A stretch of 15,956 bases of DNA from Myxococcales bacterium (GTDB taxonomy: Bacteria; Myxococcota_A; UBA9160; SMWR01): the NCBI GenBank assembly GCA_022572485.1, contig JACZVU010000047.1, positions 1 to 15,956 of the forward strand, given 5' to 3'. The translations under genes and the position numbers were made by a program. Shown here in pieces: positions 10,282 through 15,956 of this stretch (within the stretch, counting starts at the first letter, position 1; every line of letters starts with the position of its first letter). The notes below the pieces were generated by a model, which saw only the letters and a list, made by a program, of their open reading frames with translations, was not told the DNA's origin and did no database searches.

Positions 10282-10319
10282 AGCCGATTCACCGAAGACT
10301 CAGCGCGGTGGTCTGTAGC

Positions 10320-12082: not shown

Positions 12083-13428
12083 TCAGGCGAACTCGCGCGT
12101 GAGCAGATGTCGCGCGAGGACGATGAGGTTGAAGCTCGTCACCGAACTCCAGACGTACGCGCGGAACGACGACGACCCTCGCCAGGTGCAGCGGTCCATC
12201 TGGAAGGCGCGCTTGAGCGTTGAAATACAGCCCTCGATCCCGGATCGAAAGTCGCGCAGACGACGGAAGACCCAAGCGCTTCGAACCATGTCGCTGATCT
12301 CGAGACCCCTCTTGCGATGAAAGGCGATGTCCTCGACGCCCAATGCTTTGGCGATGGCGATGTTTTCCTTCGAGGCAAAGCCGCCGTCGAAAGCCGCTTG
12401 GCGAGGAGCCGCTCCAAACAGATCCACGTGTCGCTCGAGGCTTCGGTGGATGAGAGTCGAGTCGGCCGGGTTGCCTTCCTCGATCACGCAGTCGAGCACA
12501 AGCGAAGACTTCCCGCCGGTCAGATAGACCTTGTGCCCGTAGCGCGTTTCTCGGTGGCCTTTCACGATGATGTCCGTATGGGGCTCGAAAATCGAGACGA
12601 TCTTCTCTTCGGACGGCACCTTCTCTCCATCTAGGACGCGCCGCCGGGTCTGGTCGAGCACCCGGTCGAACCGAGGGAGGAGCGCTTGGAGCTCCGTGAC
12701 AGCGCCTGCAAGACTTCGACTCGCGTGGCCTTCTCGACGAAGACGGCGGCGTCATCACGGACCGCCTGTGAGACGCGGATCAGGTCGCGATACTGCGACG
12801 CCATGTCTTTGCGCCGACGATGGAACTTGATCGTGTAGGCGCGCCGCTTCGCGCGTCGGGTGTGATCGGAGAAGGCCTTTCGGAGCACGGGCTTGCGTTG
12901 GGCCATCCGGTGCATGAGCCGGGTTGCGACCCGCACGCAATCCCACAGCAGGCTCGAATCCGACGGCTCGTGGATGGCCGCATCGACGACCGTCGTATCC
13001 CCGCGAATCGTCCGGCCCCGCTCGATTCCCTCCTTCTGAGCGAAGCGGATCAAGATCCGATGGATCGCTTCCCATGTCGCGGGCCGAATCCGCTTCACGT
13101 TGGACTGTAGGGCCTGATGGCTCGGCCGGTCTTCGAAGCCGAGGCCCACAAAGGCGCGGAACGCGTCGGAGTCCTGCAGGTGGAACTCCAGCTCGCGGTA
13201 GCTCAATCCATGGATCTGCTTCAGCAGCGCGATCCGGAGCACTTGATCGCCACTCAGCCCACGACGGCCCCGATCGCTGCGACGCCCCTGCAAGAGATCG
13301 TTCTGGACGAGCTCTCCGATCTCCGGATGCGCATCCAGAACCCTGGCCGCCATCTGCAGTTCTCGGGTATGCTGGTGCGGGCCCCAGATGGGCACGAGAG
13401 GTCTTTGAGATTCTCGGAATTGGCGCAT
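12083..13428 (-). pseudogene. DDE transposase, ISNCY-type, split by a frameshift near 12700
   Basis: Two - strand frames together make one transposase of about 450 residues. The first part (13428 down to a stop at 12631) carries the N-terminal helix-turn-helix-like region (LSGDQVLRIALLKQIHGLSY), the first catalytic Asp in IRGDTTVVDAAIH, then HEPSDSSLLWDCVRV. The second part (down to 12083) carries GHKVYLTGGKS, the second Asp in AAFDGGFASKENI and the Glu in RSGIEGCISTLKRAF. Continuity is restored if one base is added near 12697-12702, where CTGTCACGG on the - strand would read Leu-Val-Thr-Glu as CTGGTCACGG. I see no slippery heptamer in the overlap, so mutation or an assembly error is likelier than programmed frameshifting. 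I prefer the ATG at 13428 (GGGGGTG just upstream); 13488 is an alternative. Confidence 0.85.
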
Positions 13429-13554
13429 CGCTTCACCCCCGATCGGCGATTTTCTGTGTAAGTTCGGTTGGTTGGTACCGCCTAGCATACACCAATCGCA
13501 AGATGAAAGGGAGTCGCGATTGCGCCAATTCCTTTTGGATTCAATGACTTCCGA

Positions 13555-13574
13555 ATTTCAAGACGGGAAGTAGC
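13555..13574 (-). repeat. Right terminal inverted repeat of the insertion sequence
   Basis: The sequence ATTTCAAGACGGGAAGTAGC is the perfect reverse complement of 11899-11918. It is followed by TAG, matching the TAG that precedes the left repeat. Confidence 0.9.
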
Positions 13575-13588
13575 TAGAACTTTCACAT

Positions 13589-13647
13589 CGATCGACCCGC
13601 TGATCACGGGTCGCGATCGCCAAAGAGAGCTTGCAAGCGGCTCTTTG
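13589..13647 (+). promoter_or_regulatory. Two tandem hairpins preceding the orphan terminator; the second competes with it
   Basis: The first hairpin pairs CGACCCG (13593-13599) with CGGGTCG (13607-13613) over a 7-base loop, and can extend by four pairs past a 2-base bulge. The second pairs CAAAGAG (13621-13627) with CTCTTTG (13641-13647), with GCT/AGC inside. CTCTTTG is also part of the 5' arm of the terminator that follows, so the two cannot coexist. This is the layout of an anti-terminator/terminator switch or of a structured small RNA. No ligand-binding aptamer or leader peptide was recognised. Confidence 0.4.
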
Positions 13648-13679
13648 CCTTTGACCGGGCAAAGGGCCGTTTTCTTTTT
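13638..13679 (+). terminator. Strong Rho-independent terminator with no gene in front of it
   Basis: CGGCTCTTTGCC (13638-13649) pairs with GGCAAAGGGCCG (13658-13669) as a 12-bp stem containing one G-T pair, with an 8-base loop. It is followed by TTTTCTTTTT (13670-13679). This is a textbook + strand intrinsic terminator. The nearest + strand gene upstream is rpoD, more than 3 kb away, with a - strand gene and the insertion sequence between. The transcript it ends is therefore unidentified. Confidence 0.8.
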
Positions 13680-13762
13680 GGCGTCACTTTTGGAGCGGCG
13701 AAGCATGTCACGCAGTCACCCAGCGGATCGCTACGCGCTGGCGGTTTGTTCCGGCGAGATCG

Positions 13763-13942
13763 TCGCGGGGAAGCACGAATCGGCTGCTACGCCAATACTT
13801 TCCCAAAGGCACGGATCTCTCCGCCTTCACGCAAGCGGGCCTGAATCGGATCGCTCTTCGATTGAACCAGCGTCCGCGCAAGACGCTTGGCTTTCGATGT
13901 CCAGCAGACGTATTCAATGAAGCTGTTGCGTTGACCGCTTGA
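13763..13942 (+). pseudogene. IS30-family transposase, C-terminal remnant
   Basis: A + strand frame ending at TGA 13940-13942 reads SRGSTNRLLRQYFPKGTDLS, then AFTQAGLNRIALRLN, then QRPRKTLGFRCPADVFNEAV. This matches the well-known C-terminus of IS30 transposases (N-GLLRQYFPKGTDL, LN-RPRKTLGF-PAE). Only about 60 residues are recognisable. Further upstream the frame is open but has no family match, and the catalytic Glu region before LLRQYF appears deleted (SRGSTN instead of PWQRGSNENTN). The last codons include GTTGCGTTGACC (13925-13936), whose reverse complement GGTCAACGCAAC is typical of IS30 ends, so the right end of the element is probably about here. No matching left end was seen, so this is a dead fragment. 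Confidence 0.8.
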
Positions 13943-14364
13943 GTGCAAGCCCAATTGATCCAAACTCGGTTGACGGCTCACACCACGGCTGCGAATGGAG
14001 TCGGTCGTCCCATAGGGTCTTGTTTTCCATCGGTGCCTCCTCTCGTTGGGTGTTGTTGAATTGCCAACTCGAGGATGTCCGATGAGGCCGGGAGGCACCA
14101 ACCGTCGTGCTCTCGGGAACTTACGTCACTGTCCGCAGGCGCCATACCCTTATGATGCTTATCAACTCGGTTGAGCCATTAGCCGCCGCCCGCCCACCGG
14201 AAAAAAGCGAGGCGGCAGCCTGAGAGCGCCAGAATGAACGACGACTTGCGTTCGAGAAAACCCTAAAGTTCGAGTCTCGCGCACCGATAGTGTGCTGAAT
14301 TGGACACGGCCAGGCGTATTGCCGCGCTGTGCTCCCGGATGCGGGTCGGACCGTGCGTTCACCT
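13943..14364. other. Gene-poor stretch between the IS30 remnant and the riboswitch
   Basis: I see no credible gene in this 420-base region; the open frames on the - strand show no recognisable domain. It holds a 9-bp inverted repeat, GGTGCCTCC (14032-14040) with GGAGGCACC (14091-14099), and must contain the promoter for the riboswitch-controlled transcript. No clear sigma-70 or sigma-54 promoter was found by eye. Confidence 0.5.
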
Positions 14365-14460
14365 GCTCCTCGACAAGGCAAACCCGGCGAAATCCGGGGA
14401 CGCAAAACCAGTGCCCGACCTCGGAGAAGCCGAGAGGGTCGAACGGTTGCCGAAAGGAGT
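14365..14460 (+). promoter_or_regulatory. Cyclic-di-GMP-I riboswitch (GEMM-I)
   Basis: The aptamer follows the GEMM-I consensus closely. P1 is CTCCT (14366-14370) with AGGAG (14455-14459). It is followed by AAGGCAAACC (14375-14384) and the stem CCCGG/CCGGG (14383-14387 and 14394-14398) capped by the GAAA tetraloop (14389-14392). Next come GGACGCAAAACC (14398-14409), a third stem (TCGG/CCGA within 14417-14440) and the 3' block GGTTGCCGAA (14445-14454). The base equivalent to Vc2 G20 (14377) is G, which predicts c-di-GMP rather than cGAMP specificity; the intercalating A47 equivalent is 14404. It precedes a gene for a PilZ c-di-GMP receptor. P1 contains AAGGAG (14454-14459), seven bases before ATG 14467. 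A hairpin with a UUCG loop at 14540-14564, followed by CGTCTTTC, is a weaker candidate expression platform. Confidence 0.9.
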
Positions 14461-14610
14461 TGCGCAATGCACGCGCCTCGCCGACCCACGCTCGCCCTTG
14501 CATCACTCGCCTTGAACTCGCTCTCGGCCCGCCGTTCGACCCGCTCGGCCCCTTCGGGTGCGGGCGTCTTTCACTCGCCACCGTTATCTATATCTGGAGG
14601 TAAAACCACC

Positions 14611-15411
14611 ATGGTACGAAGCCAACCGCCGAGGACCAACGAAAGCCGAGAGAGTCGGTTCAAGAACCTCGCTGACCTCGAAGCCGCTTACAGACGCGTT
14701 GCAGACGATCCGTCGACCGAGAGCTGCGTCGTCGATGTTTCGAGCCGGACGCTCCACGTCCAACTAGAATCGGAGGTGAGGCAGCCACCGGCGCCTCCGA
14801 ATCTCCACCTTGACCGGCGTCGCGACCCCCGTGCTCTGGTCTCGGCGAGTGTACTCGTGAGGGCGAACGAAAAGGTCAGTGAACACATCACATACGACCT
14901 CTCCGTCGGCGGAATCCGCCTGTGCGGCTTGCCCTGCGCGCAGGTCGGGGACAAGGTCAAAGTGCGCCTTCAGCTGCCCCGGACTCTGGTCCGCGCTCGG
15001 GGTCGACTCATGAGGTGTGGATCGACCGACGGACGGCCCGACTTCGCCATACAGTTTGTGGATCTGGAGGCAAGCGACGAGGATGCGATCCACGAGGCTG
15101 TGGTGGAGGTTCTCTCGCAGCCGGAGCGCCGCTCTCTCCTGTTGATGCAGAGCGAACAGAACCCCTACTGGTGGTCCGGGTGGGAATGGCTAGACCCCGT
15201 GGCGCCCATTTGTGCCAACGCCATGACTCCGCTTGCGGCGGTGGAGTACCTGGAGGAGCACCGCTTCGACGTAGGGATCGTCGGCTCTGGGGGTCGTGGG
15301 ACGCCGGACTCGGAATGGATTGAGATGTACCCGGAGGTTTGTTGGCGAAGCATCAACCACGTGGGGCGCCTACGCCCTGTCGCTACGACCTTTGGGCTAA
15401 GGGTGGTTTAG
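14611..15411 (+). CDS. PilZ-domain protein with C-terminal degenerate receiver-like domain
   Basis: PilZ domains bind cyclic di-GMP and pass the signal to motility, polysaccharide or transcription targets. From the ATG at 14611 (GGAGG at 14596-14600) the protein has 266 residues. Residues 1-65 are a polar region of unknown role. The PilZ domain spans about 68-167, with the c-di-GMP motif RxxxR at 70-74 (RRDPR) and DxSxxG at 96-101 (DLSVGG), so binding is expected. From about 174 (RRSLLLMQSEQN) to the end the sequence looks like a receiver domain (TPLAAVEYLEEHRFDVGIVG), but Gly225 stands where the phosphoacceptor Asp should be and the second half is short, so it is probably a pseudo-receiver. 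The frame is open upstream to ATG 14467, which gives a possible 48-residue extension. The riboswitch lies directly upstream. Confidence 0.85.
   Translation: MVRSQPPRTNESRESRFKNLADLEAAYRRVADDPSTESCVVDVSSRTLHVQLESEVRQPPAPPNLHLDRRRDPRALVSASVLVRANEKVSEHITYDLSVGGIRLCGLPCAQVGDKVKVRLQLPRTLVRARGRLMRCGSTDGRPDFAIQFVDLEASDEDAIHEAVVEVLSQPERRSLLLMQSEQNPYWWSGWEWLDPVAPICANAMTPLAAVEYLEEHRFDVGIVGSGGRGTPDSEWIEMYPEVCWRSINHVGRLRPVATTFGLRVV
14881..15150 (+). repeat. Direct repeat, copy 1, within the first PilZ gene
   Basis: These 270 bases align without gaps to 15687-15956, 806 bases downstream, with about 30 mismatches by hand count. The block covers most of the PilZ domain and runs to the start of the receiver-like part. 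It shows a tandem gene duplication. Confidence 0.85.
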
Positions 15412-15584
15412 ACGTCGCGATCTCGGTAACGCACAGGCGCAATAAGGAGTGCCCGACGAGCACCGGATCGCGTGGACGCGCCCCAGCATCGTCTACTCGC
15501 AGCGCGTGATGGCCGCCTAGCGCAAATCGTTCTCCGAGATCTGAGCGCCATTTGAGGCCTCGATTCCAACCGGGAGGAAACCCC

Positions 15585-15956
15585 ATGGCAACAGCGTTGA
15601 TTCCGATTCCTCAGACAGATCGTCGCAGTGTGCCGCGTGCGCTGGTCTGCGCGAGCGCCGTTGTGGTGAGCAAGGGAAAGGCCACCGAACACATGACCTA
15701 CGACCTCTCCGTCGGCGGGGTCCGCCTGTGCGGCTTGCCCCGCGCGCAGGTCGGGGACGAGGTCAGCGTGCGGCTTCAGCTGCCCTGGGCTCGCGTCCGC
15801 GCTCAGGGTCGACTCCTGAGGCGCGGATCGATCGACGGACGGCCCGACTTCGCCATTCAGTTTGTGGATCTGGAGGCGAGCGACGAGGATGCAATCCAGG
15901 ATGCCGTGGTGGACGCTCTCTCGCACCCGGAGCGCCGCTCGCTCCTGTTGCTTCAG
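15585..15956 (+). CDS. Second PilZ-domain protein (3' partial, runs off the window)
   Basis: The frame opens at ATG 15585, with GGGAGG at 15572-15577 seven bases upstream, and continues with no stop for 124 codons to the window edge. The PilZ motifs are intact: RxxxR at 14-18 (RSVPR) and DxSxxG at 41-46 (DLSVGG). A GRPDFAIQFVDLEASDEDAI segment is identical to the first PilZ protein. The last residues, ERRSLLLLQ, match the point where the first protein enters its receiver-like domain, so a similar C-terminal domain is expected beyond the window. Unlike the first copy it lacks the polar N-terminal region of about 65 residues. A 173-base gap separates the two genes; no second riboswitch is visible in it, so the pair may share one transcript. 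Confidence 0.85.
   Translation, partial: MATALIPIPQTDRRSVPRALVCASAVVVSKGKATEHMTYDLSVGGVRLCGLPRAQVGDEVSVRLQLPWARVRAQGRLLRRGSIDGRPDFAIQFVDLEASDEDAIQDAVVDALSHPERRSLLLLQ
15687..15956 (+). repeat. Direct repeat, copy 2, within the second PilZ gene
   Basis: This is the counterpart of 14881-15150, without gaps. The repeat may continue past the window edge. Confidence 0.85.

Follow-up and report, generated by a model that had tools for sequence, protein, structure and literature searches.

A c-di-GMP-I riboswitch aptamer ahead of a PilZ gene, followed by a putative expression platform antisense to the aptamer's own 3' half

Main finding

Within the window, i.e., the whole stretch of 15,956 bases that was analysed, a full-length c-di-GMP-I (GEMM-I) riboswitch aptamer is followed, 156 nt downstream, by a gene for a PilZ protein, and the intervening leader holds a long arm that is antisense to almost the whole 3' half of the aptamer. 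We think that the aptamer is very probably genuine and acting on this first PilZ gene, and we consider it probable that the antisense arm is its expression platform. That control is exerted by transcription attenuation through strand invasion is a reading that we favour with a confidence a little above even. The riboswitch itself belongs to a known kind, and its unusual trait would be the length of its antisense platform.

The aptamer and its ligand

The aptamer occupies positions 14367-14454 of the forward strand. It was matched by the Rfam family RF01051 with 60.1 bits (cmscan, gathering score 35, E 7.3e-10) in an alignment that spans model positions 1-87 of 87 without truncation, which places it in the family, and it is the sole Rfam match across the 15,956-base window at gathering thresholds. 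The original prediction had described a very clear GEMM-I aptamer and had proposed a search with the RF01051 covariance model as a check; the significant match on the forward strand bears it out, and the motifs quoted there, a GAAA tetraloop and the GGCAAACC and GGACGCAAAACC blocks, are present in the sequence. Besides these motifs, the alignment retains GGC-AAA plus GCC on the 3' side.

The ligand is likely to be c-di-GMP, judging from one base. Riboswitches that bind cGAMP (GEMM-Ib) carry an A at the equivalent of G20 of the Vc2 aptamer, and the base of the window aptamer at the position that we take to be this one, and to separate c-di-GMP from cGAMP binders, is a G.

Plasmid DNA searched with the leader at E up to 1 gave 10 distant records, whose matches span 8-15% of the query each. 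A stretch of the Deinococcus taeanensis plasmid NZ_CP083458.1 (29858-29907), in which no gene is listed, weakly resembles the 5' part of the aptamer (query bases 24-67) at the DNA level (78%, E 0.3), and it may be another GEMM-I aptamer, carried by a plasmid.

The PilZ genes and their surroundings

PilZ gene 1 (14611..15411, + strand) is the next gene on the strand of the aptamer and encodes 266 residues, formed by an N-terminal extension, a PilZ domain (residues 68-163) and a C-terminal region without known family. PF07238, whose cut-off is 22.5 bits, matches it with 49.6 bits, and the ligand motifs are RRDPR at residue 70 (RxxxR) and DLSVGG (DxSxxG). A paralogue, PilZ gene 2 (15585..15956, + strand, open at the window end), reaches 38.9 bits, carries RSVPR and DLSVGG, and matches gene 1 at 84.9% of nucleotides across 324 nt. 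Both genes therefore possess the family domain together with the RxxxR and (D/N)xSxxG motifs of a PilZ receptor, so that two earlier claims, a first gene behind the aptamer encoding a PilZ domain with both ligand motifs and a tandem of two PilZ genes, are confirmed.

The further claim of a self-contained c-di-GMP module goes too far, because a Pfam scan of 8 window proteins, with the other ORFs judged by eye, gave no c-di-GMP synthase or hydrolase, an Rfam search of 13500-15956 at E up to 5 gave no second aptamer 5' of gene 2, and a transcript common to both genes is conjectural. In the same region, an SAH riboswitch match inside gene 2 was rejected as chance-level (17.3 bits vs 37, E 4.1). 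The original account of the aptamer holds, but it lacked the long inverted repeat at 14410-14569, the weak U-tract, the in-frame ATG at 14467 and the finding of no aptamer ahead of gene 2.

Upstream of the riboswitch, on the reverse strand, Pfam recognizes a transposase (12086-13488) in two halves, DUF772 and DDE_Tnp_1, on a pair of ORFs that overlap; we read it as a frameshifted gene or the product of a programmed frameshift. Farther upstream, dnaG and rpoD were confirmed by Pfam, and murA and his genes were named by eye. No tRNA or tmRNA was found in the window, nor any sigma-70-type promoter in 13500-15956.

Relatives of gene 1 were searched for among 5.8 billion proteins. A single-sequence query gave 12 of them at E up to 0.001, and a query with a 14-row alignment, which scored the 7998 candidates with the most words in common, gave at least 20, all with a PilZ domain. 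Every one of the 22 aligned members matches PF07238 at E up to 5 and has DxSxxG, and RxxxR is present in 15 of the 22; two of the seven that are without it (P0011 and P0020) are predicted to start 3' of the RxxxR stretch. One of them, P0001, with 99% identity to gene 1, may be that gene itself. In phages and plasmids tblastn gave no match to the family, and no related locus was confirmed in species genomes and viral contigs with short peptide patterns, which may miss relatives. Searches of annotated and species collections did not yield the family either.

From its sequences the family looks small and mosaic. Four members (P0001, P0003, P0005 and P0007) contain segments that agree at 100% with one relative here and another there. 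In P0003, residues 96-155 are 100% identical to those of P0007 and residues 181-266 to those of P0001, while identity between P0001 and P0003 is 50% over residues 126-155. Recombination between tandem copies could explain such mosaics, and so could chimeric metagenome assembly.

For the PilZ part, the structural model is of fair quality, with pLDDT block means of 74-89 for residues 81-160, and its Foldseek matches include the PilZ structures of MotI/DgrA, Alg44, cellulose synthase and YcgR; residues 172-266 lie almost all below pLDDT 50. A receiver-like C-terminal domain that had been suggested by eye was discarded, as Pfam gave, beyond PilZ, 6 families matched by 1 of the 22 members each, with a best E of 0.01, in a region of pLDDT below 50. 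The family profile gave no match to PDB sequences at E up to 1.

An arm antisense to the aptamer

The left arm of the inverted repeat (14410..14453, + strand) is the 3' half of the aptamer itself, and the right arm (14524..14569, + strand) is its antisense, that is, an anti-aptamer. Aligned with the reverse complement of the right arm, the left arm gives 36 identities in 47 columns. In the minimum-energy fold the arms are joined by 39 base pairs, as counted from the pair list, with an uninterrupted core of 12 bp, one G-U included, between 14436-14447 and 14531-14542; the outermost pairs, 14411-14568 and 14410-14569, reach a weak U-tract, UCUUUC (14567..14572, + strand).

This complementarity is exceptional for the window. 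When 44-mers were compared with the reverse complement of the next 160 nt at 1431 window positions, the top inverted-repeat score (53) was that of the riboswitch repeat, which begins inside the aptamer. The next scores, 41-44, were given by 44-mers starting near 13388-13421, 10308-10319 and 5798; the inverted repeat behind rpoD is probably a terminator. The predicted duplex of 14404-14454 with the following 156 nt (14455-14610) has an energy of −71.6 kcal/mol, a strength that was reached by none of 1000 dinucleotide shuffles of the downstream stretch (−41.8 ± 4.0 kcal/mol) and by none of 730 other window segments (−41.2 ± 4.6 kcal/mol). Moreover, the 274-nt leader as a whole folds better than 200 out of 200 shuffles (z −4.2). 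As an outside control, 12 GEMM-I leaders of other organisms were taken from viral contigs by one exact search pattern and confirmed by Rfam, 11 of them as RF01051 and 1 as RF03167; their duplex z-scores, with 300 shuffles each, range from −2.4 to +1.6, in contrast with −7.7 for the window.

The aptamer and the long hairpin are mutually exclusive, since both use the same bases, and by prediction the leader can therefore take up alternative structures that involve the aptamer and the putative platform, as is expected of a riboswitch. For the free leader RNA, an energy of −113.9 kcal/mol and a probability of 1.0 for the anti-aptamer pairing are predicted. Enforcing the 19 canonical Rfam pairs of the aptamer, which leaves out the anti-aptamer pairing by construction, gives −86.0 kcal/mol, a value in which the energies of ligand and tertiary contacts are not counted.

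Strand invasion and the sign of control

We infer from these folds that control would be co-transcriptional. The aptamer would fold first, and an inner hairpin between the arms (14449..14528, + strand) would form next, beside the aptamer, competing for its 3' tail as a possible toehold. If c-di-GMP did not hold the aptamer, the right arm would invade and zip with the aptamer half into one long hairpin ending at the UCUUUC tract, where transcription would stop. Bound c-di-GMP would block the toehold, and transcription would reach the PilZ gene, thus giving an ON switch. Because the long hairpin is better by 27.9 kcal/mol (ligand and tertiary contacts not counted), such switching could only be kinetic.

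The predicted folds agree with this scheme in part. The inner hairpin is found in the free RNA, with the aptamer pairs enforced and with 14376-14448 masked; it takes the 3' tail of the aptamer and vanishes once masking is extended to 14453. This loss agrees with a toehold that could be blocked by the ligand, and invasion would begin next to the ligand pocket, which presumably lies beside the 3' tail; the same loss also counts against the invasion reading. Strand invasion with attenuation is made likely, in a modest measure, by the bases that hairpin and aptamer share and by the end of the hairpin at a weak U-tract, to which the free-state structure extends (up to 14569). The poor quality of this tract, at which the terminator scan called no intrinsic terminator, is an argument against attenuation; the great stability of the long hairpin and the negative promoter search (sigma-70 type, 13500-15956) also count against the scheme.

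As for the sign, we give ON a chance somewhat short of even, which is higher than that of OFF, while control at another level is a slightly weaker candidate than OFF. ON is favoured because the complementarity runs right to the U-tract, which would be needed by an invading terminator and not by an antiterminator, and because the antisense of any hairpin must itself be hairpin-like.

This last argument bears on an OFF switch, which we hold to be possible though unlikely. There, the right arm of the unliganded leader would pair with the aptamer and so block a short terminator (14537..14566, + strand); c-di-GMP would free the right arm, the short hairpin would form at the UCUUUC tract and PilZ synthesis would end, i.e., the amount of receptor would be under negative control. 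With 14376-14448 masked, as if the aptamer were held, this short hairpin is the predicted fold of transcripts ending at 14568-14575 (its core from 14565 on), which would favour either OFF or no switching at all. Its stretch, 14530-14575, has an energy of −16.0 kcal/mol, and the 12-bp core of the long repeat (14531-14542) overlaps its 5' arm. However, the short hairpin appears only transiently: other folds displace it in transcripts from 14580 on, and, when the aptamer is enforced in the full leader, a hairpin at 14531-14549 and pairing of 14557-14566 with 14572-14582 take its place. Moreover, the long free-state hairpin shares the end at the U-tract and would be a poor antiterminator, the complementarity of the right arm goes far beyond what an OFF switch requires, and the short hairpin may be a by-product of being antisense to a hairpin.

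The predicted folds make a hairpin followed by UCUUUC possible in both states. Alternatively, control might act on translation or RNA stability instead of termination, the leader folds altering ribosome access or cutting by RNase III. We think this improbable, even if the poor U-tract, the long double strand of the free state and a strong Shine-Dalgarno sequence (GGAGG, 14596..14600, + strand, 10 nt before ATG 14611) speak for it, for the predicted accessibility of the first base of that sequence is nearly the same with the leader free, enforced or masked (0.07, 0.09 and 0.08, respectively).

A more doubtful explanation is that the inverted repeat is an accident, left by an inverted duplication or a mobile palindrome, and that the switch is defunct. 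The extreme stability of the free-state hairpin, the split transposase upstream and the mosaic look of the PilZ family would suit it; the aptamer, however, is intact at 60.1 bits, and the arm stops at the U-tract. In addition, part of the leader between the arms occurs in at least one relative, as P0006 keeps 17 of the 22 residues of the leader peptide.

That peptide would be read from an ATG at 14467, just 3' of the aptamer, which is preceded by AAAGGAG and runs in frame and without stop into the PilZ gene (leader extension 14467..14610, + strand). In P0006, whose predicted start is this leader ATG, the leader peptide is fused directly to the PilZ domain and RxxxR is lost. It is quite unlikely that the gene of the window starts there, with the aptamer acting on AAAGGAG, in spite of this ribosome-binding sequence, the open frame and the predicted start of P0006, since 14467-14610 does not look coded (G+C by codon position 0.58/0.71/0.65 vs 0.68/0.47/0.73 in gene 1), three relatives that possess the N-terminal extension (P0001, P0002 and P0004) have their predicted start at the equivalent of 14611, with MVRSQ or MVQSR, the site is enclosed by the inner hairpin in both the free and the aptamer-enforced folds, and P0006 itself is without RxxxR. 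The start of the window's gene is more probably ATG 14611.

What a receptor circuit would mean

With an aptamer for c-di-GMP in the leader of a gene whose protein is likely to bind c-di-GMP, the messenger probably tunes the amount of one of its own receptors, and a receptor circuit is plausible. The second messenger would then act twice on one receptor, on its amount through the RNA and on its activity through PilZ. An ON sign would amount to coherent feed-forward and make the response sharper, whereas an OFF sign would buffer it. One review gives a KD of ~1 nM for the Vc2 aptamer and of 840 nM for a PilZ domain of E. coli; if these values held here, the RNA would respond at lower c-di-GMP than the protein.

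A broader picture can be drawn, which we regard as speculative and rather improbable as a whole. In it, the GEMM-I platform would nearly copy, in inverted orientation, one half of its own aptamer, would invade as an antisense of that whole domain and would control fast-diversifying tandem PilZ receptors, and c-di-GMP would set the receptor dose by way of a kinetic switch, irreversible once the 39-bp hairpin has zipped.

Comparison with known systems

In the consulted sections of the literature, GEMM-I aptamers precede genes for c-di-GMP turnover and signalling, for the cell surface and for respiration (PMC7266159, PMC6200980, PMC12564702, PMC11218506, PMC8835794, PMC6456294). One review assigns many of the genes associated with GEMM to c-di-GMP "signaling networks", a term that could cover PilZ genes. 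In a search limited to part of the open-access literature, no GEMM-I aptamer was described as preceding a PilZ gene, and the founding GEMM papers may mention one. At 8 of the 12 GEMM-I loci found in viral contigs, Pfam was run on a downstream ORF of the same strand (at L017, on the second one listed), and none of the 8 matches PilZ at E up to 0.01; this sample, small and biased, thus gives no support to a general link between GEMM and PilZ. The other four loci (L012, L015, L016 and L019) have no ORF of at least 100 aa listed within 1.4 kb. In L017 the aptamer (2587-2670, − strand) lies 5' of an HD-domain (HD_5) gene, and this viral contig also has a pemK RNA match. L018 (3398-3482, − strand) and L021 (1044-1128, − strand) are near-identical GEMM-I leaders of two viral contigs, followed by secreted-looking proteins without Pfam match at E up to 0.01. 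An rpoD query gave no match in viral contigs and 9 distant loci in species genomes; RF01051 was found in neither of 2 genomes that carry such loci and in none of 14 control genomes, a comparison that is uninformative.

The cGAMP-binding GEMM-Ib riboswitches of Geobacter share the architecture of the aptamer and carry A where the window aptamer keeps G. They are located ahead of cytochrome, pilus and polysaccharide genes, and the main text makes no mention of PilZ (PMC6456294).

With the RF01051 class as a whole, the window shares the full-length aptamer, the GAAA tetraloop with its two conserved blocks, and the position in the leader of a c-di-GMP-related gene; the difference lies in the platform, which here is antisense to almost the whole 3' half of the aptamer over 39 bp and has nothing comparable in the 12 control leaders. 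Class I c-di-GMP riboswitches generally act on termination or on the start of translation, according to the consulted part of PMC11218506. The same source describes, for the Bc1 c-di-GMP-I riboswitch of Bacillus thuringiensis, an expression platform behind the class I aptamer that is also long; judging by that description, Bc1 has two typical terminators 28 bp apart, whereas the window has one weak candidate of hairpin and U-tract plus the long antisense arm (PMC11218506).

On the protein side, the PilZ barrel is shared with MotI/DgrA, YcgR and Alg44 (PDB 5vx6, 5y6f and 4rt0), which are among the best Foldseek matches, and RxxxR and DxSxxG are found in both genes of the window. The window protein differs from them by its N-terminal extension and by a C-terminal region without convincing Pfam match.

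Strand-displacement riboswitches, such as ZTP (pfl), offer the parallel for the mechanism. The principle proposed is the same, namely that a downstream hairpin ousts the aptamer (PMC10085676). A ligand that holds the aptamer would prevent this. The aptamer of ZTP is different, and the mechanism has been tested there by mutagenesis, whereas here we infer it from complementarity (PMC10085676). With an antisense platform of such length, the present leader would lend itself well to studies of how riboswitches use strand invasion.
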